This document shows, one piece after another, positions 5,159-32,756 of a DNA stretch of 51,598 nt (position 1 is its first letter; the number at the start of each line of letters is the position of its first letter). The notes beneath the pieces were generated by a model, which had not been told where the DNA came from, made no database searches, and worked only from the letters and a program-made list of their open reading frames with translations. Where the stretch lies: contig JAGHYV010000029.1 of the NCBI GenBank assembly GCA_017743475.1, positions 1 through 51,598 of the forward strand, in the 5' to 3' direction. The DNA is from Roseiflexus sp. (GTDB taxonomy: Bacteria > Chloroflexota > Chloroflexia > Chloroflexales > Roseiflexaceae). The translations under genes were made by a program, and so were the position numbers.

Positions 5159-7534
5159 TCAATCTTCCACGTTCAACGTTCCACTCCCAGGTGCGGTTGT
5201 TTTTGCCCGCTTTTTACCGGTAGATGTCTTCGTTCGCTTTGTCGCGGGTTGTTCCTCCGCCTCTGCCTCCAATGGCGCGTTATTGTCGGGCGTGTAGTTT
5301 GCAACTTCATCAAGCGAGTTCACCAGGTAGTCGCACTTTGGATAACGACCACACCCGAAGAAAGGTCGCCCAAACTTGCCGCGCCGCTCCAGCAATTCAC
5401 CCTGACGACACTTCGGGCAGGTTACGCCGGTCGCCTTTGGTGGTGGTACCGGCTTCCCCTGTTTGTCGAGGCGTCGGGTATTTTTGCACTCCGGGTAGCC
5501 GCTACATCCCAGGAACGGACCAAACCGGCTCTTCTTCAGCACCATCGGTCGTCCGCACAGCTCACAGATGACATCACTCACTTCCGGCGCGGCTGGCGCA
5601 TCGATCACGATGCGTCCCTCGCCGTCGCGGTGAAAGTCACTGGTGAAATCGCACTCCGGGTAGCGGTTGCACGCCAGGAATTCGCCATTCTTGCCGAACC
5701 GGACCGCCAGTTGCCCCTGACTGCACTTCGGGCAGGTCAGGTCGGTGAGAATCTCCTCGCGCTTGACATTGCGCATACTGCGCTGCGCGTCCGCCAGTTT
5801 CTGCTCAAACGGCTCGTAGAAGGCGCGCAATACCGGCGTCCACTCTTTCTCTCCTTCGGCGATGTCATCGAGTTGCTGCTCCATTTCCGAAGTGAAGCCA
5901 TAATCGACGATGCTGGGGAAGTGCTGCACCAGCAGGTCGGTCACGACCTTGCCAAGTGTGGTTGGCACGAGTTTTTTATCCACAAGTTCAACGTACTCAC
6001 GCTCAATAATCGTCGAGATGGTGGGTGCATAGGTCGAAGGACGACCAATGCCGAGACGTTCCAACTCCTTCACCAGGCTGGCTTCGGTGAAACGCGGCGG
6101 CGGCTCGGTGAAGTGCTGTACCGGCAACAGTTGCACCAGCGTGAGCACATCCCCCTCTGCAAGCAGCGGTAACCGCCGTTCGCTATCCTCATCCTCCTCG
6201 CCTTCGTCCAGGCTGACATTGTAGACTGCCAGGAATCCGGGGAACTTCAGAACAGAACCGGTGGTTCGGAAGGTGTACGGGTCAGGGTCATTGCCTGCAC
6301 TGTGCTCGATCCCCCGCCCCGCGCCAATGTCCACCGTCGTGCTGTCGAATACCGCTGCCTCCATCTGACTGGCAACGAACCGTTTCCAGATCAACTCATA
6401 GAGACGATACTGATCACTCGTCAGGTAGGGTTGCACCTGTTCTGGCGTGCGTCGGCTAAGGGTCGGACGGATGGCTTCGTGCGCCTCCTGCGCCCCTTTG
6501 GCCTTCGTTTTGTAAACCGGCGGTTTGGGCGGCAGGTATGCTTCGCCGTACCGCTCGCGAATGACAATGCGCACCTCTTCTTGCGCCTCATGTGATACGT
6601 TCACGCTATCGGTGCGCATATACGTGATAAGACCTACCAAACCCTCATCACCGCCAATATCCACTCCTTCGTACAACTGTTGCGCCACTGCCATGGTGCG
6701 TTTGGCGGAAAAACCGAGTTTGCGCCCGGCTTCTTGCTGCAACGTGCTGGTAGTGAACGGCGGCGGCGGACTGCGTCGCTTATCGCGGCGCGTCACCTTA
6801 CGTACGATATACGCAGCGCCTTCCAGATCGGCAACAATTTCCTGCGCTTGCTCACCTGAGCCGATGTCGAACTTCTCGAGTTTCCTGCCAGCGCGCTCGA
6901 TCAGCACGGCGCGAAACGGTTCGTGCACGTCCTGCTTAAGCAGATCGGCTTCGATCGTCCAGTATTCCTGCGGAACGAACGACTCGATCTCGCGCTCACG
7001 CTCGACGATCAGGCGTACTGCAACTGATTGCACCCTCCCGGCGGACAATCCGCGTCGCACTTTCTCCCACAGGAGTGGCGACAGTTTGTAGCCTACCAGA
7101 CGATCCAGCACACGACGCGCCTGCTGTGCATCGACTAGTCGGCGATCAATGTCGCGTGGCGATGCCATTGCACTGCGCACTGCACTGGGCGTGATTTCGG
7201 TGAAGACAACCCGATACACTGGCTTTCCACGCGGGATTTTCGCTGCCTCGGTGATATGCCAGGCGATAGCTTCCCCCTCGCGGTCTGGATCGGTCGCCAG
7301 ATACACGGCATCCGCCTGGCGAATCGATTTACGCAGCGCGGCAATGATTTTCTCCTTGCCCGGCGAAATCTCATATATCGGCGTAAAGTTCGCATCGAGA
7401 TCAACACCAAGGTCGCTCTTCGGCAGATCACGAACATGCCCCATCGAAGCCTCGACCCGATACCCCTGACCGAGATACTTCTGGATGGTGCGTGCCTTCG
7501 CTGGCGACTCGACAATAACCAGTTTCTCGCCCAT
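5159..7534 (-). CDS. topA: DNA topoisomerase I
   Basis: About 791 residues. A type IA topoisomerase relaxes negative supercoils through a 5'-phosphotyrosine intermediate. The TOPRIM domain starts at KLVIVESPAKARTIQKYLG, and TDPDREGEAIAWH is the metal-binding block. The active site is Tyr305 in GLITYMRTDS. Three C-terminal four-Cys zinc ribbons follow (TCPKCSQGQ, CELCGRPMV, TCPKCRQGE), each closing with YPEC or YPKC, then a Lys-rich tail. I chose the ATG at 7534, with GGACAGGAT just upstream, over one 12 codons earlier. The last residues, GTLNVED, are encoded by a TTCAAC-type heptamer repeat and look like a recent addition. Confidence 0.96.
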   Translation of the reverse strand: MGEKLVIVESPAKARTIQKYLGQGYRVEASMGHVRDLPKSDLGVDLDANFTPIYEISPGKEKIIAALRKSIRQADAVYLATDPDREGEAIAWHITEAAKIPRGKPVYRVVFTEITPSAVRSAMASPRDIDRRLVDAQQARRVLDRLVGYKLSPLLWEKVRRGLSAGRVQSVAVRLIVEREREIESFVPQEYWTIEADLLKQDVHEPFRAVLIERAGRKLEKFDIGSGEQAQEIVADLEGAAYIVRKVTRRDKRRSPPPPFTTSTLQQEAGRKLGFSAKRTMAVAQQLYEGVDIGGDEGLVGLITYMRTDSVNVSHEAQEEVRIVIRERYGEAYLPPKPPVYKTKAKGAQEAHEAIRPTLSRRTPEQVQPYLTSDQYRLYELIWKRFVASQMEAAVFDSTTVDIGAGRGIEHSAGNDPDPYTFRTTGSVLKFPGFLAVYNVSLDEGEEDEDSERRLPLLAEGDVLTLVQLLPVQHFTEPPPRFTEASLVKELERLGIGRPSTYAPTISTIIEREYVELVDKKLVPTTLGKVVTDLLVQHFPSIVDYGFTSEMEQQLDDIAEGEKEWTPVLRAFYEPFEQKLADAQRSMRNVKREEILTDLTCPKCSQGQLAVRFGKNGEFLACNRYPECDFTSDFHRDGEGRIVIDAPAAPEVSDVICELCGRPMVLKKSRFGPFLGCSGYPECKNTRRLDKQGKPVPPPKATGVTCPKCRQGELLERRGKFGRPFFGCGRYPKCDYLVNSLDEVANYTPDNNAPLEAEAEEQPATKRTKTSTGKKRAKTTAPGSGTLNVED
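5164..5184 (+). repeat. Three heptamer units at the 3' end of topA
   Basis: On the plus strand the units CTTCCAC, GTTCAAC and GTTCCAC follow one another without gaps. They are the same family as the arrays at 8.5-12 kb and 31.2 kb. Here they lie inside the reading frame of topA and encode its last residues. Confidence 0.7.
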
Positions 7535-8193: not shown

Positions 8194-8242
8194 GTTCTCA
8201 GTTCCCGGTTCTTAGTTCTCAGTTCTTAGTTCTCAGTTCCCG
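8194..8242 (+). repeat. Seven exact heptamers of the GTTCYYR type directly before a start codon
   Basis: The units are GTTCTCA, GTTCCCG, GTTCTTA, GTTCTCA, GTTCTTA, GTTCTCA and GTTCCCG, 49 bases without a gap or slip. The array ends at 8242 and the GTG start codon begins at 8243, so the array occupies the place of the ribosome-binding site. It is a second heptamer family, distinct from TTCAACS. Confidence 0.9.
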
Positions 8243-11200
8243 GTGACAATTATTGCTCCCGTTACCCTGATCCTCATCATTCTGGTGCTCATTCTCACCG
8301 GCGCGTTGATCGCTTGCGCGTTGCCGGTTGCCTGGCGTACCAGCGATCCGATCGAACGCTGGTTCGAATATGCCCTGATCGGCGCGCTGCTAAACGGATG
8401 GCTGGCATTCACCCTGGCGCAGATTGGCATCTTCTCTGCGCCGCTGCATGTCGCTGTGGTTGCCGTTCTCTGCATCATCGCCACACTGATCCGCCGCGCA
8501 CTCGGCAGTCAACCTGCCACCCCCGACGTTCCACCCGCTACCCCTGACGTTCCACCTGCCACGTTCAACGTTCAACCTTCAACGTCCGGCGGTCAGCCTG
8601 CAACACGCAACCAACGTTCTACCTTCAACCTTCCACGCCCAACGTTCAACCTTCAACCTTTAACCTTCAACCTCCTCCTCCCTGCCATTCTGCTGCTCTT
8701 TGTCTTCCTCATTACTCCTCCGTTCGAGACGATCATCGGTGTGCGCGATGCGGGCGTGTATGCGAATGCCGGATTCATCATGGCGCGCACCGGTTCGCTG
8801 ACCTTCACCGATCCGCTGGTGGCGCAGATTGCTGCCGATCAGCAATCTCCCGATCCATCGCTTGCCGATGCCGCCCGTCAGGCGGAAACCAACGTTCTTA
8901 GCGTGCAGAATGCGCAGCGCTTCATTGCGACCCGCCTGCGCGCCGCAGGGTTTTTTATCGATCAGGGCGACCTTGAACACGGGCGTGTCGTCCCGCAAGG
9001 ATTGCACCTCTTCTCCGCTTGGATCGGATTGCTTGCTGCATTCTTCGGGATGCACGGCGGATTGCTGGCGCCAGCAGTTACCGGTCTGCTTGGCGTCTGG
9101 AGCGTTGCTTTGCTCGGTCGGCGCATCGCCGGTTCGTGGGTCGGGCTGCTGGCAGCGCTCTTCCTTGCACTTAATGCCGTCCAGGTCTGGTTCAGTCGCT
9201 ATTCCACCGCCGAAACAACTGCGCAGTTCCTCATCTTTGCCGGACTCTACGCCTTCGCCAGAGCCTTTGGATCTTCGACGTTCAACGTTCAACGTTCAAC
9301 CTTCCACCTTCCACCTTCAACCTTCAACGTTCCACCTTCAACCTTCCACGCCCTGCTCGCCGGGTTGGCATTCGGACAACTCGCCCTGACGCGCATCGAG
9401 TTCTTCCTGATCACAGGACCGCTGGCACTCTACCTGACCTTCATCTGGATTGCACGTCGCTGGACGCCGCCGCATACTGCACTGCTGGCGGGTGCCGGGG
9501 TGATGCTGTTGCATGCCGGATTGCAGATCGTGTTCCTGGCGCGCGCCTATTTCTTCGATACGCTCTTCGCCCGTCTGCAAGATTTTGCGCTCACCGCAGC
9601 CCTGGCGCTGCCGTTTCTCACCCCAACGTTGCGCCAGATCTACCTGCTGCGCCCCTGCTCACGCCTGACGATGCAGCCCTGCCCGCCGATCGCCGGGATG
9701 CCGCCGACTACTGATGCACCACTCAACTGGACCCGTATCGGCACCGAACTTCTCGTCGTCATCCTGATCATCATTGTCCTGATCGCAGTGCGTCGCCTGA
9801 ATCTGATCACCCATCTTGTGCCGCTACTTGCGCGTCTGAGCCGACCACTGCGTCTGATCGCTGCGGTTGTCGTCATTGTGCTTGGAGGGTATGCGTACCT
9901 TATTCGTCCGCAAATCTTGTCGCTTGCGACTGTTGCCGCACTACCTGCCTGCCTGACGCCAGCGCAACTGACCAGCCCACAGGGTGCGTGTCTGACTCTC
10001 CAGGGGTATGTCGGGGCACCGATTGCGACCCCCGCGTATGTCGATCCGCTCGCTGGATGGATTGATCATCTCATCAGTACGGCACGCGGTCGTTCCACTC
10101 CGACGCGCGAAGCCTGTATTGCACTGCGCCGCGAGATGCTGCCGCCATTTGCCGATGGGCGTACCATGCCAGAAGTCATTCGAGATGGTCTGATCCGCGA
10201 GTCGGACATTGCACCGGAGATCCTTGCTGCTCTGCGCGCCTGCGACCGCTACGTGCTGCGTGACCTGTTCGGTGTGGCGCAGGCAAACCTGGTGCGCCTT
10301 GGATGGTATTTGTCGCCGCTGGGGATCGCACTTGCTCTTGCTGGTCTGGCACTAATGGTCTACCGTATCAACTCGAACTCCTGGCTTTTTTTGGTTATTG
10401 CTGCAATTGCATCGGTTGTCTTCCTACGGCTGACCTACGGTACCAGCGATCAGCACTATATTTACATCATGCGGCGCTACGTACCGCATATCTATCCAGC
10501 GTTCGCCATCGGCATCGCTTATGCCATCATGCATCTGACTCCCGACCTGCGATCGTTTGCCGATATGGTGCGATCCGTCGTGCGGAAGGTGCATCGCAAT
10601 GTCTTAACAGGACTGCAACGTCCAATAGTGTTCAACGTTCAAGGTTCAACGTTCAAGGTTCCACCTTCCACATCTGACGCTCAACCCTCAACGTCCAACC
10701 TTCCACGTCCAACCTTCCACGTTCAACGTTCGACGTTCAACGTTCAACCTTCCACACCCAACGTTCAATGCCCGGCGCCCAACGTTCAACCTTCTGCGTC
10801 CAACGTTCAACGTCCAACCTTCAACCTTCAACCTTCCACGCCCAATGTTCAACGCCCGACGCCCGACGTTCAACCTTCAACGTCCAACCTTCAACCGTCC
10901 ACACCCAATGCCCAACGCCCGACGCCCAGCACCCAACATGCAACGTTCAACGTTCAACGTCCAACCTTCAACCTTCGTGTTCTCCTCACCCTTGCCCTTG
11001 TCCTGTTCCTGGTCGTCACCGGCAGACCGATCTACCGCCACACCGAATATGCTGGAGCGATCACACAGATTGGCGCAATGGCAGCCCAACTCGATCCAGG
11101 TGCGATTGTGCTCATGCGTGGCGGCGCTCCATCGTATACGCAGGCACGTGACATCCCCGACCTGCTGGCAACACCGCTCACCTTTGGGTTTGGGGTTGAC

Positions 11201-12073
11201 GCATTCGCACTGAAGAGCCGCGATCCCGGACGCTACGCACCGCAACTGGCGCGCTACCTCCGTCGCTGGCACGAGCAGGGGCGCCCGATATACCTGGCGG
11301 TCAGCGCTAGCGGTGCGCTGACCCTCCCCGGATGGCGTCTCGAACCGGTCGGGCGACTGCTCCTCGACCTGCCGGAATACGAACAACCGACCGATCACAA
11401 ACCCTCCGCTGTGCAGCGATTCACCCTCGACTTTGCACTCTATCGCATGACACCTGGCGAGACGGCAGAAGCGCCACCGGTCATTCTGCCCGACGACTAC
11501 GCCTACCAGGTGCGCGGGGTCTACCGTGCGGAGCGTATGAACGACCGTCTGATCGCCTGGACCGACGGCGACGCGCTATTCCGCCTGCCGGCGCCGACTG
11601 CTGAGCCGCTGAGCATCTCAGTGACACTGGCATCCGGTGCGCGCCCGGCGGCGTCTATCGGCGAGACATGCCTGGCGCTCGCTGCTGAACCCGGCTTCTC
11701 CGTCGAAGAGGCAGAACAGGCAGTATTCACCACACCGGTATGCGTCACTCCCGACATCGAACCAACCACCGTCACGCTGGCGATTGATCCCCGCCAGATG
11801 CCCCCATCACCAACCGGGCATCTCCTCCTGCGCGTGCGCAGCCCTGCCTTCATACCCGCCCGCGACAATCCCGCCAGTCACGATCCGCGCCGCCTGGGGG
11901 TGCAGATTATGGGGTTAGGGGTTCGTCGGGCGGCGCTCTCAACGCAGGCAGAGACCGTTCCGCCACCGACGTACCAGCGTAGCACCCGGTCGTATGGTCA
12001 AGACCTCAAGGGTCGGGGACGCCCTTCATCCCGGCTTACAGACAACCTTCAACCTTCAACTTTCAACGGATAA
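8243..12073 (+). CDS. Large multi-pass membrane protein, GT-C glycosyltransferase-like, with in-frame heptapeptide repeats
   Basis: 1276 residues with many transmembrane helices. A long extracytoplasmic loop after the first helices (ETIIGVRDAGVYANAGFIMA) recalls GT-C proteins of the PMT/ArnT type, which move sugars from lipid carriers. The exact family is unproven. Helices run to about residue 790, with one more near 913-930, followed by a soluble C-terminal part of some 340 residues. Three blocks of a seven-residue repeat of the pattern PSTFNVQ interrupt it at about residues 90-145, 344-371 and 794-912, each apparently between helices. The C-terminus (NLQPSTFNG) is also repeat-derived. The GTG start has no ribosome site because a heptamer array abuts it; an internal start cannot be excluded. 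Confidence 0.75.
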   Translation: MTIIAPVTLILIILVLILTGALIACALPVAWRTSDPIERWFEYALIGALLNGWLAFTLAQIGIFSAPLHVAVVAVLCIIATLIRRALGSQPATPDVPPATPDVPPATFNVQPSTSGGQPATRNQRSTFNLPRPTFNLQPLTFNLLLPAILLLFVFLITPPFETIIGVRDAGVYANAGFIMARTGSLTFTDPLVAQIAADQQSPDPSLADAARQAETNVLSVQNAQRFIATRLRAAGFFIDQGDLEHGRVVPQGLHLFSAWIGLLAAFFGMHGGLLAPAVTGLLGVWSVALLGRRIAGSWVGLLAALFLALNAVQVWFSRYSTAETTAQFLIFAGLYAFARAFGSSTFNVQRSTFHLPPSTFNVPPSTFHALLAGLAFGQLALTRIEFFLITGPLALYLTFIWIARRWTPPHTALLAGAGVMLLHAGLQIVFLARAYFFDTLFARLQDFALTAALALPFLTPTLRQIYLLRPCSRLTMQPCPPIAGMPPTTDAPLNWTRIGTELLVVILIIIVLIAVRRLNLITHLVPLLARLSRPLRLIAAVVVIVLGGYAYLIRPQILSLATVAALPACLTPAQLTSPQGACLTLQGYVGAPIATPAYVDPLAGWIDHLISTARGRSTPTREACIALRREMLPPFADGRTMPEVIRDGLIRESDIAPEILAALRACDRYVLRDLFGVAQANLVRLGWYLSPLGIALALAGLALMVYRINSNSWLFLVIAAIASVVFLRLTYGTSDQHYIYIMRRYVPHIYPAFAIGIAYAIMHLTPDLRSFADMVRSVVRKVHRNVLTGLQRPIVFNVQGSTFKVPPSTSDAQPSTSNLPRPTFHVQRSTFNVQPSTPNVQCPAPNVQPSASNVQRPTFNLQPSTPNVQRPTPDVQPSTSNLQPSTPNAQRPTPSTQHATFNVQRPTFNLRVLLTLALVLFLVVTGRPIYRHTEYAGAITQIGAMAAQLDPGAIVLMRGGAPSYTQARDIPDLLATPLTFGFGVDAFALKSRDPGRYAPQLARYLRRWHEQGRPIYLAVSASGALTLPGWRLEPVGRLLLDLPEYEQPTDHKPSAVQRFTLDFALYRMTPGETAEAPPVILPDDYAYQVRGVYRAERMNDRLIAWTDGDALFRLPAPTAEPLSISVTLASGARPAASIGETCLALAAEPGFSVEEAEQAVFTTPVCVTPDIEPTTVTLAIDPRQMPPSPTGHLLLRVRSPAFIPARDNPASHDPRRLGVQIMGLGVRRAALSTQAETVPPPTYQRSTRSYGQDLKGRGRPSSRLTDNLQPSTFNG
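8510..8677 (+). repeat. In-frame heptad block 1 (8 units)
   Basis: Eight 21-base units encode QPATPDV, PPATPDV, PPATFNV, QPSTSGG, QPATRNQ, RSTFNLP, RPTFNLQ and PLTFNLL. The DNA is a run of TTCAACG/TTCAACC/TTCCACG-like heptamers, three per protein unit. It lies in a loop between predicted helices near the N-terminus. Confidence 0.85.
9272..9355 (+). repeat. In-frame heptad block 2 (4 units)
   Basis: Four 21-base units encode SSTFNVQ, RSTFHLP, PSTFNVP and PSTFHAL, between a helix ending LYAFARAFG and one starting LLAGLAFGQLAL. It is the least diverged block at DNA level, with runs of TTCAACG and TTCAACC. Confidence 0.85.
10622..10978 (+). repeat. In-frame heptad block 3 (17 units)
   Basis: Seventeen 21-base units, beginning PIVFNVQ, GSTFKVP and PSTSDAQ and ending HATFNVQ, RPTFNLR, sit between a basic segment (VVRKVHRNVLTGLQR) and the helix VLLTLALVLFLVV. 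Units differ mainly by single substitutions (F/P/S at position 4, R/P at position 1), as expected from expansion followed by drift. Confidence 0.9.
12044..12070 (+). repeat. Heptamer remnant at the stop codon of the GT-C-like gene
   Basis: CAACCTTCAACCTTCAACTT followed by TCAACGG encodes the last residues NLQPSTFNG before TAA. As at the 3' end of topA, the array coincides with the end of the protein. Confidence 0.65.
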
Positions 12074-12755: not shown

Positions 12756-14498
12756 ATGGTACGACGATTTCAACCAGGACAGGCGCTCGTCGAGTTTGTT
12801 ATCGCCTCGACGCTCATCCTGCTGCTGCTGGCGGCTGCGGTCGATATCGGGCTGCTGTTCTTCAACATGCAGGGGTTGACCACCGCTGCACAGGAAGGCG
12901 CCACGTATGGCAGTCGTTATGTGATCGTCCGATCGGATGGCGCGGTCGATCTTGATTACGACATGATCCGCATGCGCGTGCGCCAGGAAGCAGGAACGAC
13001 CGGCGGCATCAACTTCGTCAATATGTACGATCTCAACAGTGATGCCATTCCCGACGCCGCCGATACCAACGGCGACGGCGTGCTCGACCAGTTCCAGTAC
13101 TTCCTCGACCAGAACGGCGACGGGCGCGCAATCGGCGATCCGGTGACCGGGCTGATCCCCGCAGGAACCGAACCGTCCGGCTACGTCCGGTTGATCGATC
13201 ACTACATCCTGGTGCAGGCCATCGAGGATGTCTTCCCCTTCAATGGCAATCCGCTGGGACCGGAGGACGCCGACGGCAATCGCGCCAACGACCTGGCGCC
13301 CGACGTGGATACAACGCCCTGCGCCAACCTGGCGGATCCGAACCGGCAGTGCTATGTCTTCGTCATTGTGAAATCCGACTACAATACCGTGTTTGGCTTC
13401 ACGCCCGCCTTTGGCGATAAGGTGCCGCTCAGTTCGCGCTTTGTCATGCCGCTGCGCGCCGGGTTCGTATCACCGGGTGCGCCGACCAATACGCCGGTTG
13501 TGCAAACCAACACGCCAACACCCACACCGACGGATACGCCAACGCCAACCGCAACCAACACGCCAACGCGCACACCGACGAATACGGCATCGCCGACAAC
13601 AACGAATACGCCGACCAATACGCGCACGCCAACCAATACGCCGACGCGCACCAATACGCCGACGCGCACCAATACGCCGACGCCCAGCAATACGCCGACG
13701 CGCACTCCCACATTCACGCCGACCGCCACGCCATGCGCTGGTGGTACGGGCAACGGTCTGCGCGGCGACTACTTCATCTACACGCCGGGCGGCAGCGTGG
13801 GAACGACGAACTTCTTCCCCGGCGCGCCGGTGGCAAGCCGCACCGAAAATATCAACCGGCCGCAGAACGATACCTCGCCCATTGCTGGCGTAGGAAAGGA
13901 TTACTTCTCCGTGCGCTGGACGGGTCAGGTCGAGCCGCTGTTCAGCGGGGAGTACACCTTCTATGCCGATACCGATGATGGTGTGCGCGTGTGGGTCAAT
14001 GGCGTCCGGATCATCAACGACTGGAAAAGGAAAACCGAGTCCAGTGAAGTGAATGGCAAGATCACCCTGACCGCCTGCCAGCGGGTCAGCATTACAGTTG
14101 AGTACTTCGAGTGGACCGGCAACCAGAAAGCGATCCTCAGATGGGAGCATGCGAACCAGCCGAAGCAGGTCATTCCGGTTGCGCGGCTCTACTCCAGCGG
14201 CACGCCGCCGGCAACGGCGACCCGTACGCTGACGCCGTCGCGCACGCCGACGTTCACGCCGAGCAACACGCCAAGGCCGACCAACACGCCGACGCCGAGC
14301 AACACGCCGAGGCCGACCAACACGCCGACGCGCACCAATACGCCGACCAATACGCCACCGGCGACCAATACGCCGACGTTCACGCCGACATTCACACCGA
14401 CACGCACGCCAACGTTCACACCAACACTGACGCCGTCGAACACGCCAACCCGAACACCGACGTTCACGCCAACGCGCACGCCAGACACTGCTACGTAA
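12756..14498 (+). CDS. TadE-like protein with calcium-loop repeats, Thr/Pro linkers and a PA14 domain
   Basis: 580 residues. The N-terminus [20 protein letters not shown] is a TadE-type leader and helix. Residues about 92-127 hold Asp-rich loops ([20 protein letters not shown]) like EF-hand/thrombospondin-3 calcium sites. A Thr/Pro linker with NTPT and RTPT units spans about 245-328. A PA14 domain follows at about 334-480 ([45 protein letters not shown]). A second Thr/Pro linker runs to the C-terminus. PA14 domains often bind carbohydrate in adhesins. A displayed adhesin using pseudopilin export is inference. The ribosome site is GAGGGAG and the gene starts 23 bases after tadE. Confidence 0.85.
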
Positions 14499-17200: not shown

Positions 17201-17304
17201 CGACTGTTTGATTGTCCCTGTGATAATCTCCATTGCCTGTATCGGCGCGTCTCTACTGGCGCGTAACCTCTCTTCCGCCAGGTTTCCAAGGAGGTGTATG
17301 CATC

Positions 17305-19881
17305 ATGACTCGAACCACACGCATGCCGACCACGGTGCGCGCGCTGACACTCGTCGTCACGCTGCTGACCGTTCTTGCGATCCTTCCACCCGCACCGGTC
17401 GCCGCCAGCGTGATCAAGGTTGTTGCCCTGGATGATACTCAGCCGGAGTTCGGCGCCGGTTCACGCACCCTGACCGCAGTTATTCCAACGACGCTGAGCA
17501 ATGATCCGATATCCGGGCAGGTGACCGAACCGTATGCCGGCGCCAAACCCGGCGATCAGGGCGGGCTTGCCATGGCTGCCATTCGCGCACTGCGCTGGGG
17601 CGCCATCCCGGATAGCCCGCTCCCCGCAGCCCGCACCGAAATCGGCGCAGCGGTCATCGGGAACACGATCTGGGTCATTGGCGGTTCTTCAGGTGGCACG
17701 GGGTATCAAAGCACCGTCTACCGCGGAACGGTCAACACGAATTATGGACAGCCCGGCGCCGGTGTGATTACCTGGGTGACGTCCACGCCACTGCCATCCG
17801 TCAGCCATGCAGATACGTCGACGTTCAACATTGCGCCGCGAACCAACGCAGCGGTCGCCGCGCTGCGCACCAGTGGCAACGCGGGGTATCTCTACGTGAT
17901 CGGCGGCGCGGTCTCCAGTGGGATCGACACATTCTCGAGCAACTCGGTGATCGTCGGCGATGTCGATGCGAATGGGAACCTGACCTGGCGCACCTCGCCG
18001 ACGTACAGACTTCCATCGAATGTTGGGCTGGAAGGCGCGCGCGCGTTCGTGCATACAACTGCTGCCGGCAAGACATTCCTGTACGTCGTCGGCGGGCGAA
18101 ACGATCCGCCTGGACTGGTCGGTCCGACGCTTTCCAATCGCGTCTACTACGCCGAGATCAACCCGTCGAACGGTAATCTTAACCTCGGCGGCGACAACCG
18201 CACCTGGCAATCGATGATTATGCCGCAAGCCGTATGGAACACTGCCGTGACTGTTGGGCGCTACACGAATGCGGACGGAACGGTAACGCAGGATCTGTTC
18301 TTCATCTACGGTGGTGGAACGAGCGCCACTTCCGAAAATGTGGATACTGGCACCGTCTGGAAAGGGGTGATCAACCCGACCACCGGCGCAATCACATGGG
18401 AGGATAGCACCACCGGCGGGAACGCCGTTATCCCCGGCAATCGCAACAGTCACGGCGCAGTTGAGTTCGGCGGCGCAATCTACCTGATCGGCGGGCGCAG
18501 CGGCGGCACGATCAATCGCAATGGCTATGCCTCCTATGTCGATCCGGCCAACCTGCGCATCTTCAAAGATGGAGCGCTCAACTTCTATCAGGACGACTTC
18601 GGCGCGCTGCCTTTTGCAGCAAATCCTGGACGGCGCAATGCGGGTGTGGTGCTGGTGCCGACCAGCAACCCGAACTATGCGTTCGCCTACCTGATCGGCG
18701 GCACCGATGGAACCGCGCCGTCCAGTCAGGTCTTCCGCGCGACGATCGGACCCAACCTCGACGACCAGACCTTCTATCCGCCGACCGGCTACTACTACTC
18801 GAAGCCCTTCTCGATGCTCGACCTGATCAACGAGCAGCAGGCCACCGTGCGCAAAATGACCTGGCTGACGAATATCGATCAGGCAAATGGCGGTGATATT
18901 GAAGTCGAGTACCGCGTCTACTCCCCGTCGAGCGGCAACTGCGCCGACACGGAAGGTGGATGGACGCAGGCGCGTGATCCGGACGCCGGTGGAACGCGCT
19001 TCTCGAAGTTCAACCCGAGCGGCGCGGCGTATGCCATCAATGCCCAGGAGTATAGAGAGAGTCAGTGGCTCCCGCCGGGCAACTGCTTCCAGTACCGCCT
19101 CACCTTCCGCCGCGGCTCTGTCCCGAACGCCTCGCCGGTGCTGCTACGCCTGGGCATGGAAGTGATCATTCCGGGCAACCCCGATCTGAACTGGCCCGCC
19201 AATGCTGTCACCACCACCCAGAACACTGATGGCACCACCAGAGGCGTCGAAGTGCGCCTGCGCAACCAGAACCTGACCGACAGCGGACCGACGCAACCGG
19301 CGAATGTGTGCCATTCATCGCAACCGGGGTGCAATCCGGAGGGTACATTCTTCGTTGATGTGTTCATCTTCCCGCCGGGTGTAACGCCGATCTCGCCAAC
19401 GTTGCCGCTGTTCGCTCCTGGAGGCGATAGCCTGAGCAACCCGGCGCTCGCGCCATACCATCGCGCCTGTCTGCAAATTCCGAAGTGGGTGATGCAGAAG
19501 GATACTACGTTCCTGATAGCGGAGACATTCCGTTGGAGCGACATCAAAGCAGTCGGTATCAGCGGATGTGTCTCGGCTGCAACCAATGCCAGCAGAGGAA
19601 CCGGTAAAATCCTGCGCGATTTCTTCGATCAGGGCAACGGAACCTATAAGGTTATTCTGGTTGCCGATACCGACACAGATCTGAAAGGATTGGTGTACGA
19701 GTCTGATGTGCCAAGCGGCGACCATGTGGCGGAACGGAACAATGTCAGCGCCATCTTCGACGTCGTATTTGTTGCTGGAGGCTCGCCACCGCCGCCTGAT
19801 GGCGGACCCCAACCACCCCCCGACAACCCACCGCCTGATGATGGCACGAGACGCATCTTCCTACCGCTGGTGGCTCGTTAG
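17305..19881 (+). CDS. Secreted Kelch beta-propeller protein with FLPLVAR C-terminus
   Basis: About 858 residues. A signal peptide (RALTLVVTLLTVLAILPPAP, then VAAS) precedes a propeller. Its Gly-Gly blade motifs are VIGGSSGGT, VIGGAVSSG, VVGGRNDPPG, FIYGGGTS, LIGGRSGGT and LIGGTDGTA, about six Kelch blades in residues 85-490. A second half (about 500-830) is beta-rich with Cys pairs. The C-terminus is a Pro-rich stretch ending RRIFLPLVAR, a tail I recall on many secreted Chloroflexota proteins and which may act in sorting. An AAGGAGGTG ribosome site at 17288-17296 fixes the ATG at 17305. It sits between tadG and cpaB, so a Tad-linked surface role is inferred. Confidence 0.85.
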   Translation: MTRTTRMPTTVRALTLVVTLLTVLAILPPAPVAASVIKVVALDDTQPEFGAGSRTLTAVIPTTLSNDPISGQVTEPYAGAKPGDQGGLAMAAIRALRWGAIPDSPLPAARTEIGAAVIGNTIWVIGGSSGGTGYQSTVYRGTVNTNYGQPGAGVITWVTSTPLPSVSHADTSTFNIAPRTNAAVAALRTSGNAGYLYVIGGAVSSGIDTFSSNSVIVGDVDANGNLTWRTSPTYRLPSNVGLEGARAFVHTTAAGKTFLYVVGGRNDPPGLVGPTLSNRVYYAEINPSNGNLNLGGDNRTWQSMIMPQAVWNTAVTVGRYTNADGTVTQDLFFIYGGGTSATSENVDTGTVWKGVINPTTGAITWEDSTTGGNAVIPGNRNSHGAVEFGGAIYLIGGRSGGTINRNGYASYVDPANLRIFKDGALNFYQDDFGALPFAANPGRRNAGVVLVPTSNPNYAFAYLIGGTDGTAPSSQVFRATIGPNLDDQTFYPPTGYYYSKPFSMLDLINEQQATVRKMTWLTNIDQANGGDIEVEYRVYSPSSGNCADTEGGWTQARDPDAGGTRFSKFNPSGAAYAINAQEYRESQWLPPGNCFQYRLTFRRGSVPNASPVLLRLGMEVIIPGNPDLNWPANAVTTTQNTDGTTRGVEVRLRNQNLTDSGPTQPANVCHSSQPGCNPEGTFFVDVFIFPPGVTPISPTLPLFAPGGDSLSNPALAPYHRACLQIPKWVMQKDTTFLIAETFRWSDIKAVGISGCVSAATNASRGTGKILRDFFDQGNGTYKVILVADTDTDLKGLVYESDVPSGDHVAERNNVSAIFDVVFVAGGSPPPPDGGPQPPPDNPPPDDGTRRIFLPLVAR

Positions 19882-19889
19882 TAGTGAGC

Positions 19890-19925
19890 GTTGCACGTTG
19901 CACGTTCAAACATTGAACGTGCAAC
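19890..19925. repeat. Heptamer-built perfect hairpin after the Kelch gene
   Basis: GTTGCAC occurs twice in tandem (19890-19903). The second copy starts a perfect 13-bp inverted repeat: GTTGCACGTTCAA at 19897-19909 and TTGAACGTGCAAC at 19913-19925, loop ACA. No T-run follows. It may act as a transcript 3' end and is related in sequence to the TTCAAC arrays. Confidence 0.6.
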
Positions 19926-26284: not shown

Positions 26285-28261
26285 ATGCTGTCTGTTGTGC
26301 GTGACTCCCGCCTGATTGCTGCTGTGTTGTTCGCCGGAGCGCTTTTCCTCTACCTGCGGACGTTGACGCGGGTGCATACCTTCGATGCGCTTTCGTATGT
26401 GATGAGTGTCGAGCGCAAGCCATGGACTGAGTTGTTCCATCCGCACCACCTGGCGTATGGTCCGCTCGGTGCGTTGGCGCTGGCGTTCGGTCGCGCGCTG
26501 GGATACAACGGCAGCGCAGCTCTGCCCATGCAACTGGTGAATGCCATTGTCGGCGCACTCGGCGTGGCGCTCTTCTATGTCACGGCCCGCGCGGCAACCG
26601 GTCGCACTGATGCAGCGTTGCCAGCTGCGCTCCTCCTGGGCGGTTCGTATGCCTTCTGGTATTATGCCGTCGAAATCGAGGTGTACACCGTCGCGACGTT
26701 GTTCCTGATCATATGCCTGGCGTTGATCATCCAACCAATTCCCTGGAGCGCCCGGCGCTGCATGGCGCTGGGAGTGGTGCAGGGCGGCGCGGTGCTGTTT
26801 CACCAGACGAATGTGCTGTTCTGTATACCAGTTGCGGTCATTGCACTGGCAGACCTGCGCGTGGCCAAGGATGTGCGCGCCTTTGGCAGTCGCTGGGGTG
26901 CATATGCCGTCGCACTAGCACTGGTAATGGCGCTGCCCTACCTGTACGTCATGCTGATCGTCAGTAACTTCCGCACAATTGACGCTATGCTGGCGTGGTT
27001 AACGGAATATGCGCGTACGGGATGGTGGGGCAGGCCGCTTACAACCAACACAGTCGTCAGCCTTGGCACAGGGCTGAGCGATACACTGGCGCAACCGGGC
27101 GGCGGATGGTTCTACCTGGCACTTGGCATGGCGGCAGCCTGGGCTGGCGGTCAGCGTTTCCCACGGGGAATATCATTGGCAGAGCAACCAGGAACACCAG
27201 CGCCTTCGATGCCGTGGGCAGCGCTAACCGTCTGGCTGGCAACGTATGGCACATTTTTTGCATGGTGGGAACCGGACAATATCGAGTTCTGGATTGCCAG
27301 TCTACCGCCAGCCTGTCTGATCTTCGCGCGAGCGCTTGCACAGGCGCGTCGCTGGAGCGCGCCAATCTGGACGTCACTGGGGATTGTCGGGATCATTGTG
27401 TGGGTCAACTACGGTTCAATCGCGCAACGTGGCAATCCGACAACCGATCTGCAACGGTTAATCGCACGTGAACTGGCAGAGCACAGTACCCCTGCTGATC
27501 TGCTGATTGTTCCTGATGGATTACAGGAACTCTACCTGCCGCATTATGAACAGCGCGAAAACTTCGTCTCCCTCAACCAGGCGCTGTTCGACAGTGCAGG
27601 ATCATGGGAAGCCGCATGTAGCGTCCTGCGAAACCGGATCGCAACCACACAACGTGCTGGCGCTGCAATCATTATCGCCGATGAAGCACTCCACCCACCC
27701 CAACGAGTGCTAGAGCGTCACCGCATAACGCAACGCCAAGTGGATGACTGTTTTGCCCCGTATCACACATCCCTGGTCAACCTCGATTTCGCTGACCCCA
27801 TTCCGACCTACTGGCGTTTGCCGACCGCCACCGAACTGGCGCTGACGACGGGGTGGATGTTCGAGCGTGATACAATGGGATGGCAGGCGTTCAATGCAGC
27901 TGGTGAGTCGGTTGATGGTGGGTGGAACATCACACCGGACGTCGATCCAGCGCTGCTAAGTCCGCTTTTGCATCTTGATGCCCGCCAGATCGTCGCTATC
28001 GAAATCCGCCTGGCGAACAGCACACGCAACCGTGATGCGCAACTCTTCTATGCTGGCGTCGATGGAGCGCTGAGCGAAGAACGTTCAGTGCGCTGGAAAC
28101 TGAACGCCACAAGCGACGCGATGACCTATATTATCGACCTGCGTGACGCGCCGGGATGGGACGGCATCGTCACGCGCCTGCGGATCGATCCGGTTGGAGT
28201 TGGCGACGGCGGCAACATCCGTATCGAATGGGTGCGCCTGCGCCTGACGACCGACAGGTAA
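26285..28261 (+). CDS. Multi-pass membrane protein, GT-C glycosyltransferase-like
   Basis: 658 residues. About ten helices occupy residues 10-380, followed by a soluble C-terminal part (about 400-658) ending in a beta-rich domain. The first loop has VHTFDALSYVMSVERK and FHPHHLAYGPLGALAL, and a later segment reads GSYAFWYYAVEIEVYTVATL. This pattern is close to DUF2723/PMT-like membrane proteins, which are thought to transfer sugars from lipid carriers. Unlike the protein at 8.2-12.1 kb it contains no heptad repeat. No good ribosome site; it lies 10 bases after DUF192. Its end is convergent with the small protein at 28.3 kb. Confidence 0.72.
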   Translation: MLSVVRDSRLIAAVLFAGALFLYLRTLTRVHTFDALSYVMSVERKPWTELFHPHHLAYGPLGALALAFGRALGYNGSAALPMQLVNAIVGALGVALFYVTARAATGRTDAALPAALLLGGSYAFWYYAVEIEVYTVATLFLIICLALIIQPIPWSARRCMALGVVQGGAVLFHQTNVLFCIPVAVIALADLRVAKDVRAFGSRWGAYAVALALVMALPYLYVMLIVSNFRTIDAMLAWLTEYARTGWWGRPLTTNTVVSLGTGLSDTLAQPGGGWFYLALGMAAAWAGGQRFPRGISLAEQPGTPAPSMPWAALTVWLATYGTFFAWWEPDNIEFWIASLPPACLIFARALAQARRWSAPIWTSLGIVGIIVWVNYGSIAQRGNPTTDLQRLIARELAEHSTPADLLIVPDGLQELYLPHYEQRENFVSLNQALFDSAGSWEAACSVLRNRIATTQRAGAAIIIADEALHPPQRVLERHRITQRQVDDCFAPYHTSLVNLDFADPIPTYWRLPTATELALTTGWMFERDTMGWQAFNAAGESVDGGWNITPDVDPALLSPLLHLDARQIVAIEIRLANSTRNRDAQLFYAGVDGALSEERSVRWKLNATSDAMTYIIDLRDAPGWDGIVTRLRIDPVGVGDGGNIRIEWVRLRLTTDR

Positions 28262-31228: not shown

Positions 31229-31362
31229 GCGTTCAATGTTCCCACGTTCAACCTGCAACATTTCAACGTTCCCGCGTCTCCGCGTTCCCATATTCCCACG
31301 TTCGCACATTCAACGTTCAATGTCCCAACCTTCAACCTCCAATGTTCCAACCTCCAACCCCC
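31229..31362 (+). repeat. TTCAAC/TTCCCAC short-repeat array between mreD and mrdA
   Basis: About 134 bases, read on the plus strand, are almost wholly units such as TTCAATG, TTCCCACG, TTCAACC, TTCCCGCG, TTCGCACA, TTCAACG and TTCCAACC. Seven-base units mix with eight-base ones, unlike the strict heptamers at 8.2-11 kb. The array fills the gap between the mreD stop and the mrdA start and removes any obvious ribosome site for mrdA. Confidence 0.8.
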
Positions 31363-31869
31363 TCAATACACATCCACTGGCACACGTCGGCGCACCCGAT
31401 CTTCATTCCAGCGAAACACAAGATAGAGCGGCAGCGCCGGGATCATAGCAATCAGGGTATCGGGCACAAGCGCAGCAAGAGCATATCCCTGCAGATCAAC
31501 CGGTGCAACGATCAGGGTAAGGAAAAGCGCATATACGGCATGGTACAGTATCGTTCCAATCGCCACGCCCAAAATGGGCACGAGCCAGTTCTCGCGGCTC
31601 AGGCGGGACACCAGCGCCGTCGATACAATCACGCCCGCTAGCAGTGCCAGCGCGTGCGTGCCGATAAACGTCATTGCACACAGGTCGAGCGCCAGCCCGC
31701 CATAGAATGCCCAGCGCGCCGCAGATGTCGTTCCGGCAATCAGACCATGACAGACTGCAAGCAGCAGCGTCAGGTTGATCGGCACATCGAATGGGCGTGG
31801 CAGCAATGCCGTTTGCACCAGCGCTACAACAAACAGTGCAGCAAACAACGCCACGTCGTGCATGATCAT
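31363..31869 (-). CDS. mreD: Rod-shape protein MreD
   Basis: 168 residues, a small hydrophobic protein with about five helices (DVALFAALFVVALVQTALLP, LTLLAVCHGLIAG, and others). Position between mreC and mrdA is diagnostic; sequence alone is weakly conserved in this family. The ATG at 31869 overlaps the mreC TGA as ATGA, so translation is coupled. A second ATG lies two codons later. The C-terminus (RWNEDRVRRRVPVDVY) is basic, as usual. Confidence 0.85.
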   Translation of the reverse strand: MIMHDVALFAALFVVALVQTALLPRPFDVPINLTLLLAVCHGLIAGTTSAARWAFYGGLALDLCAMTFIGTHALALLAGVIVSTALVSRLSRENWLVPILGVAIGTILYHAVYALFLTLIVAPVDLQGYALAALVPDTLIAMIPALPLYLVFRWNEDRVRRRVPVDVY

Positions 31870-32756
31870 TTCTTCGATTCGTCGCTGGTGAGAATGACCC
31901 ATGCGTAACGTACCCGATCAGGATCAACAAATGGACGAATCCCTGCAATCCGATCACGCCCGATGTCTTGCACTATCTCGATCACGCCAATCGGCACATT
32001 TGGCGGAACTGCTGCGCGGGGCAGATTGAGCGCCAGTTCCGCTGACAAACCAGCAGTCAGCACTGTATCGCCTACCGCCAGCGGCGCTTCGCGCGCAACC
32101 AGGTGCAAGATCAGGCGCGACCCACGCTGCCACTGTCCCTGGATCACGCCACGAACAACATCGGTTCCCCGGTACACCTGGGCACTGATAGCGCTGCTAT
32201 AGTCGGTGATCAGCAGCACCGAGGCGGTACGCGGACCCGCTTCCTCAACGATGCCAATCAGAGCAGGAGGATTGCTCCCCTCGCGCGCAATGACTGCCAT
32301 CCCCGGACGTACCCCCTGATCCGTGCCAGCAGCAAACAACACCAGACGACGACCGGTATCAGGGGTAAGTGCAATCACATCTGCGCCCAGCAACTTCCAG
32401 GGATACGCTTGCTCGATACGCACCTGTTCACGCAGGCGTGCATTTTCGAATTCCAGCGCCTCCGCCTGGATCAGCCGCGCCTTCAAATCGGCGTTCTCTG
32501 CACGCAGCGCCTCAAGTTCTGCCAGAAGCGCCTGATCATCGCCAGCCTGACTGATGAGCGACTCGACCCAGGCGCCTGCCTGCTGCATTCTAACCAGCAC
32601 CGGGCTGATGATCGCATGTGCGTGGAGACGCAACGGACCAAGCAACCCGGCATAATCGGCGGCCAGCAACACCGCCGCGATCAGCACTAGCAGAATCACC
32701 AGCATTGGCGAACGTCGCGCTGGTGGTGACAGGCAGTATGGGCGATCGCGTAGCAT
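31866..32756 (-). CDS. mreC: Rod-shape protein MreC
   Basis: 296 residues. N-terminal helix (MLVILLVLIAAVLLAADYAG) followed by a coiled coil (ALLAELEALRAENADLKARL, about residues 75-115). The MreC beta domain follows (GADVIALTPDTGRRL, DQGVRPGMAVIA, VLLITDYSSAISAQV, LTAGLSAELALNLPRAAVPP). It links MreB inside to PBP2 outside. It starts 11 bases after mreB. Confidence 0.93.
   Translation of the reverse strand: MLRDRPYCLSPPARRSPMLVILLVLIAAVLLAADYAGLLGPLRLHAHAIISPVLVRMQQAGAWVESLISQAGDDQALLAELEALRAENADLKARLIQAEALEFENARLREQVRIEQAYPWKLLGADVIALTPDTGRRLVLFAAGTDQGVRPGMAVIAREGSNPPALIGIVEEAGPRTASVLLITDYSSAISAQVYRGTDVVRGVIQGQWQRGSRLILHLVAREAPLAVGDTVLTAGLSAELALNLPRAAVPPNVPIGVIEIVQDIGRDRIAGIRPFVDPDRVRYAWVILTSDESKK

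Follow-up and report, generated by a model that had tools for sequence, protein, structure and literature searches.

Heptanucleotide repeat arrays of Roseiflexus and their orientation relative to neighbouring genes

The orientation of the heptanucleotide repeat arrays of Roseiflexus, a genus of filamentous phototrophs, follows the transcription direction of the neighbouring gene. The arrays are real, and it is confirmed here that seven is almost the sole short tandem period of the genome. The window analysed is one contig of 51,598 nucleotides from the 4.97-Mb draft genome of Roseiflexus sp. (the source genome, G000), and sampling also covered G002, a complete 5.80-Mb genome of the genus, and further relatives. 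Across these genomes the arrays number in the hundreds, and they are located both in genes and in gaps.

Heptamer arrays in the window and in the genus

Arrays were detected using Tandem Repeats Finder and a period-7 scan based on autocorrelation, and every array named in the initial annotation was recovered. According to the autocorrelation, the window contains 9 arrays at period 7, and 0, 1 or 2 at each other period from 4 to 15. The units are named type A (TTCAACS), type B (GTTCTCR), type C (TGCAACS) and type D (ATAGCCG), and an array is called GTT-sense or AAC-sense according to the triplet on the sense strand. The plus-strand gene P0001 (8243–12073) encodes a hydrophobic protein of 1276 residues that presumably spans the membrane several times and matches neither a Pfam nor an NCBIfam family. 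In its leader, a GTT-sense B-type array on the plus strand (GTTCTCA/GTTCTTA/GTTCCCG, 8194–8239) stops 3 nt short of the GTG start codon at 8243. Within the gene, three A-type arrays on the plus strand are AAC-sense: array 1 at 8552–8673 (8552–8583 and 8614–8673), translated as STFNVQP-like heptapeptides, array 2 at 9274–9349, and array 3 at 10630–10976, which has 49.6 units and 0% indels. At the 3' end of P0001, a short A-type array (12043–12067, plus strand) is also AAC-sense and is an exception to the post-stop rule described below.

The remaining arrays of the window are located at gene ends and in gaps. The 3' end of topA carries a short A-type array (5165–5178, minus strand), which reads TTCCACGTTCAACG, and on the gene strand GGAACGTTGAACGTGGAAGATTGA, i.e. 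GTT-sense. A degenerate, GTT-sense A-type array (31309–31359, minus strand) occupies the gap between ORF 31363–31902 and mrdA, and begins right after the upstream stop. This ORF is in the mreD position, upstream of mrdA, and the identities of topA and mrdA (a PBP2-type gene) are backed by Pfam. A short GTT-sense C-type array (CGTTGCA x2.6, 19889–19906, plus strand) lies 8 nt past the stop of ORF 17233–19881. The array family was thus found in leaders, coding regions and operon gaps, as the initial annotation had described. Separately, repeats of 12, 18, 24, 30 and 36 nt (ACGCCGACCAACACGCC...) are present at 13505–14483 within ORF 12756–14498; according to the codons they form a Thr/Pro-rich linker with an in-frame period, outside the heptamer system.

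Period 7 was counted in an unbiased sample of G002, comprising 20 evenly spaced 20-kb stretches (400 kb) picked regardless of repeats. In this sample, 31 arrays of period 7 cover 3,110 bases, with which Tandem Repeats Finder agrees, against no arrays at periods 4, 5, 9 and 11, six at period 6, one at period 8 and two at period 10; a third-order Markov control gave no period-7 arrays. The strict 7-nt period claimed from the window is supported. In the source genome, there are 43 occurrences of TTCAACS x3 and none of the reversed control pattern. All 6 genomes of the genus have the A pattern, as do 13 of 158 in the class.

In the total G002 sample of 1.29 Mb (the 20 even stretches and array-centred stretches), about 210 arrays of many unit types were detected. 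The most frequent units are AACCTTC, AACGTTC, AACCGAG, AACTGAG and AACCAAG, and GAGAGGY is a further unit type. Several types commonly adjoin within one gap. The earlier suggestion that one process makes several unit types gains support from their common 7-nt period and from this frequent abutment. Gaps and gene ends hold most of the arrays, and 7 of the 80 assigned A-type arrays of G002 are internal to genes. The heptamer ATAGCCG/ATCGGCT, whose G content equals its C content, was observed in G002 at 3207233–3207411, 26831–26891, 1532260–1532316 and 3124752–3124818, and some copies are apparently within called ORFs. Higher-order repeats of 14, about 29 and 36 nt were also seen inside heptamer arrays of G002 (3792578–3792911, 1769812–1769952 and 4655686–4656101), which suggests recent duplication of multi-unit blocks.

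The arrays vary between relatives. The reading frame of P0001 is preserved in its orthologues across the genus, and the in-gene arrays are located in non-conserved loops. The G002 orthologue has arrays at the same three places, but the lengths differ: the distances between anchors at arrays 1–3 are 154, 102 and 102 aa in G002 against 90, 34 and 164 aa in the source genome. In G003–G005 these arrays are degenerate or short, and outside the genus the linkers are short. In-frame change by exact 21-nt steps was considered and rejected. As the differences at arrays 1–3 are multiples of 3 and not of 21, off-size units help to restore the frame.

For gaps, 15 sites of G002 were located in G000, G004 and G005 by means of the upstream flank. 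Most of them hold arrays in several species, with widely different unit counts. At G002 1505773, the site is empty in G004 and G005, which have just a short spacer before the ribosome-binding site. The gap before rsmH shows a change of unit type, with (GAGAGGY)n in G004 and GTTGAAG in the other species. The rsmH start codon, TTG, lies within the last B unit in four species; the product is MraW/RsmH according to Pfam, with a match from residue 3. In G004, GAGAGGY and AGAGGGT arrays were observed to fill gaps where relatives hold GTTGAAG or TGAGAAC arrays. The variation expected between relatives was thus found, as sites are shared in the genus and both unit counts and unit types differ. The initial annotation would have been contradicted by equal unit counts at shared sites or by the lack of a period-7 excess; the counts are unequal and the excess is large.

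Orientation and position relative to genes

Genes were called by our own codon-model script trained on the sampled sequence. For A-type gap arrays between co-directional genes, the ratio of GTT to AAC on the sense strand is 64:5 in G002, 21:0 in G000, 8:1 in G005 and 4:0 in G009 (another genus of the family), where G000, G005 and G002 are partly non-independent, some of their junctions being orthologous. When each junction is counted once, the ratio is 40:5 in G002 (p = 8e-8) and 16:0 in the source genome (p = 3e-5). At convergent gene ends, 6 of 6 arrays abutting one stop are GTT-sense. Inside genes the A-type arrays are AAC-sense, in 7 of 7 cases in G002, 7 of 7 in G000, 2 of 2 in G005 and 2 of 2 in G009. 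This in-gene orientation is due to the genetic code, because only the CAACSTT direction is stop-free; GTTGAAS contains TGA in all three frames. Thus, the stop-containing strand is used in gaps and the stop-free strand inside ORFs. Type C units, which lack stops in both directions and frequently share an array with A units, are GTT-sense in gaps at 6:0. In other phyla, for which gene calls are cruder, the gap rule is weak (24:13), and the rule for arrays inside genes or at gene ends has no exception (17:0).

The arrays also differ in position. GTT-sense B arrays are nearer to the start codon at 27:5, a count affected by the uncertainty of called start codons at 5' ends, and they often end a few nt from the start. 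AAC-sense B arrays (TGAGAAC, stop-containing) are nearer to the preceding stop at 7:0, and A arrays are mainly nearer to stops (42:26). By inspection, the order in composite gaps is stop, A, B and start. The overlap of an array with the upstream gene does not exceed about 21 nt. In 17 of 19 stop-overlapping arrays, the stop is the array's own TGA, in register, and AAC-sense arrays that overlap a stop begin with a GTT-sense unit supplying that stop. Some arrays of G002, G000 and G005 were observed to flip orientation at the palindrome GTTGAACGTTCAAC just past the stop codon, keeping the stop-supplying GTT-sense unit.

The orientation bias depends on run length. Single units in array-free gaps are unbiased (66:62, GTT:AAC). 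Perfect runs in gaps are 392:439 at 6–7 nt and 302:21 at 10 nt or more, and in coding interiors the ratio is 0:20 at 17 nt or more. As single units are unbiased whereas long runs are biased, the bias arises in the growth or retention of arrays and not in seeding. Arrays wholly downstream of the stop are GTT-sense at 35:2, and their phase relative to the stop is random. Seeding by sense-biased single units is ruled out by the unbiased single units, and seeding by the stop codon by the random phase.

Origin of the orientation bias

The explanation that we consider probable is that units are gained and lost by a slippage-like process of 7-nt steps at many sites, and that the surviving arrays are sorted by the strand present in RNA. 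The process would add and remove units in steps of about 7 nt, the period being observed and slippage presumed, and would not be tied to one unit, as TTCAACS, GTTCTCR, TGCAACS, ATAGCCG and GAGAGGY all occur. In translated genes, only the stop-free direction survives, in non-conserved loops only and with the frame kept. After stops, the sense strand of the arrays is G-rich and C-poor (GTTGAAS, GTTGCAG, TGAGAAC, GAGAGGY). Long C-rich, G-poor arrays exposed past a stop would be removed, and stop-carrying arrays would be harmless; this post-stop rule most likely reflects a putative selection on untranslated RNA. Just before starts, B arrays run as GTTCTCR and can even supply the start codon.

A filter by stop codons alone is possible but rather doubtful. 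GTT-sense entry at a gene end would create a new stop, as TGA is present in all frames, and the opposite entry would cause read-through. The limited overlap with upstream genes, the in-register TGA of the overlapping arrays and the stop-supplying unit at the head of AAC-sense arrays are all consistent with such a filter. However, it does not reach the arrays wholly past the stop, which retain the 35:2 bias in random phase, or the C type, which is stop-free in both directions and yet one-handed; stop codons are thus not the full explanation. Rho polarity is a somewhat unlikely alternative. The CAACCTTCAACC RNA is C-rich, G-poor and unstructured, resembling a Rho-loading site, and in an untranslated operon gap it would silence the downstream gene and be purged, whereas ribosomes would protect it in genes. 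This reading accounts for arrays being protected in coding DNA and lost from gaps; Rho itself is present, and array-free operon gaps also have more G than C on the sense strand (182:96). At convergent ends, however, no downstream co-transcribed gene exists and the orientation is the same in 6 of 6 cases, so that Rho polarity could at most contribute. A promoter-like match follows the array in one AAC-sense exception, but the two classes did not differ clearly.

Expansion coupled to transcription, in which growth is easier when the G-rich strand is displaced as the non-template strand behind a ribosome-free polymerase (R-loop-like), is unlikely. It would fit the appearance of the bias only with length, as well as the fact that the immediately upstream gene sets the bias, whether the ends are co-directional or convergent. 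In coding DNA, however, arrays reach about 50 units in the opposite orientation, so the generator is not tied to a single orientation. The stronger form, in which growth itself is directed by transcription, with seeds equal both ways and units multiplying only where the G-rich strand is non-template in ribosome-free DNA after a stop, is less likely still; if true, it would represent a co-transcriptional mechanism of repeat expansion in bacteria. By analogy with the proposal for TAACTGA repeats (PMC4679880), A and B arrays may be RNA sites to which a regulator (S1, cold-shock or Csr type) binds, and may be retained for this regulatory role. The fixed places, with A after stops, B abutting starts and A before B in composite gaps, and the retention of B before rsmH in four species are in line with this idea. 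It is nevertheless improbable, since unit counts and types turn over, sites are empty in relatives and unit degeneracy is high.

A replication-linked strand mechanism had been suggested because all TTCAAC-type arrays of the window read one way on the plus strand even though the minus strand encodes topA and mrdA. That pattern was seen. In the window, gap arrays beside minus-strand genes are GTT-sense and arrays within the plus-strand gene are AAC-sense, so the one-handedness results from the coincidence of two opposite rules. In each half of the complete G002 chromosome, whose GC skew was not clean enough to place the replichores, arrays occupy both strands, and the strong bias is instead relative to genes. 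As gene direction explains the orientation, replication direction is not needed, and we regard a link to replication as extremely improbable. A simple loss of mismatch repair is ruled out, MutS1 and MutL being present. The MutS (G000:C19:2500-7200) has a spacer of about 100 aa between two matched parts of the family model; the spacer looked like a possible heptamer array and is not one.

The reason for the preference of bacteria for seven-base repeats is a long-standing question. With unbiased seeds on one side and near one-handed arrays, of the opposite hand in genes, on the other, the birth of arrays becomes separable from their growth or retention, which can be tested by simple reporters. 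Repeat arrays also replace untranslated parts of operons, start codon included, and conserved genes such as rsmH are not lost.

Comparison with known heptamer repeats

The STRR heptamers of filamentous cyanobacteria are, as here, tandem heptanucleotides in a filamentous phototroph. Their units and their presence inside conserved coding genes appear to differ from those of Roseiflexus. The initial description of the cyanobacterial repeats as largely intergenic and built of other units has to be revised: the TTCAACS heptamer is found in Cyanobacteria as well, and in Bacteroidetes, Verrucomicrobia, Proteobacteria and others. With a head-to-tail 7-nt excess, unit numbers that differ among relatives at shared sites and a mainly intergenic location, the Roseiflexus arrays belong to the LSSR/STRR repeats in the broad sense. 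No publication describing such arrays in Roseiflexus turned up in the literature searched; one survey describes mirror repeats and oligopurine runs as moderately over-represented in the genus.

Heptamers of Calothrix are mentioned in PMC4692102. The same paper describes heptamer arrays of GGGNATC in Xanthomonas and GGGGA(T/C)T in Nostoc, which occupy the same gaps in related species and vary in length. These are intergenic and of G-quadruplex type, whereas the A and B units of Roseiflexus are without G runs. In many bacteria, long SSRs most often have a unit of seven according to Mrazek (2007; cited in PMC4679880 and PMC4692102), and polymerase slippage was proposed; as cited there, the account does not include the orientation and position rules found in Roseiflexus.

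The arrays also resemble the TAACTGA direct repeats of marine Beggiatoaceae (MacGregor, 2015; PMC4679880), which have a 7-nt unit in 2–6 copies and a proposed regulatory role. TAACTGA is absent from the 40 most frequent units here. In both systems the stop-containing strand is found in gaps and the stop-free reverse inside ORFs, arrays extend over upstream stops for about two units at most, a ribosome-binding site is often lacking between array and start, and the repeats are also found in Cyanobacteria and Bacteroidetes. The heptamer excess and a similar grammar within and between genes are already known. As far as the literature shows, the novel elements are the quantitative orientation rule in a genus of Chloroflexota, which depends on run length and still holds past stops and at convergent ends, the use of different unit types after stops and before starts, and the turnover of unit types at orthologous gaps. 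The Beggiatoaceae have a single unit, mostly just before starts and in the stop-containing direction, whereas Roseiflexus has several types, up to about 50 units, separate types after stops and before starts, and turnover of types between species. The pre-start arrays of Roseiflexus are of type B and run in the direction opposite (TCAGTTC-like) to the stop-containing one of the Beggiatoaceae pre-start repeats.
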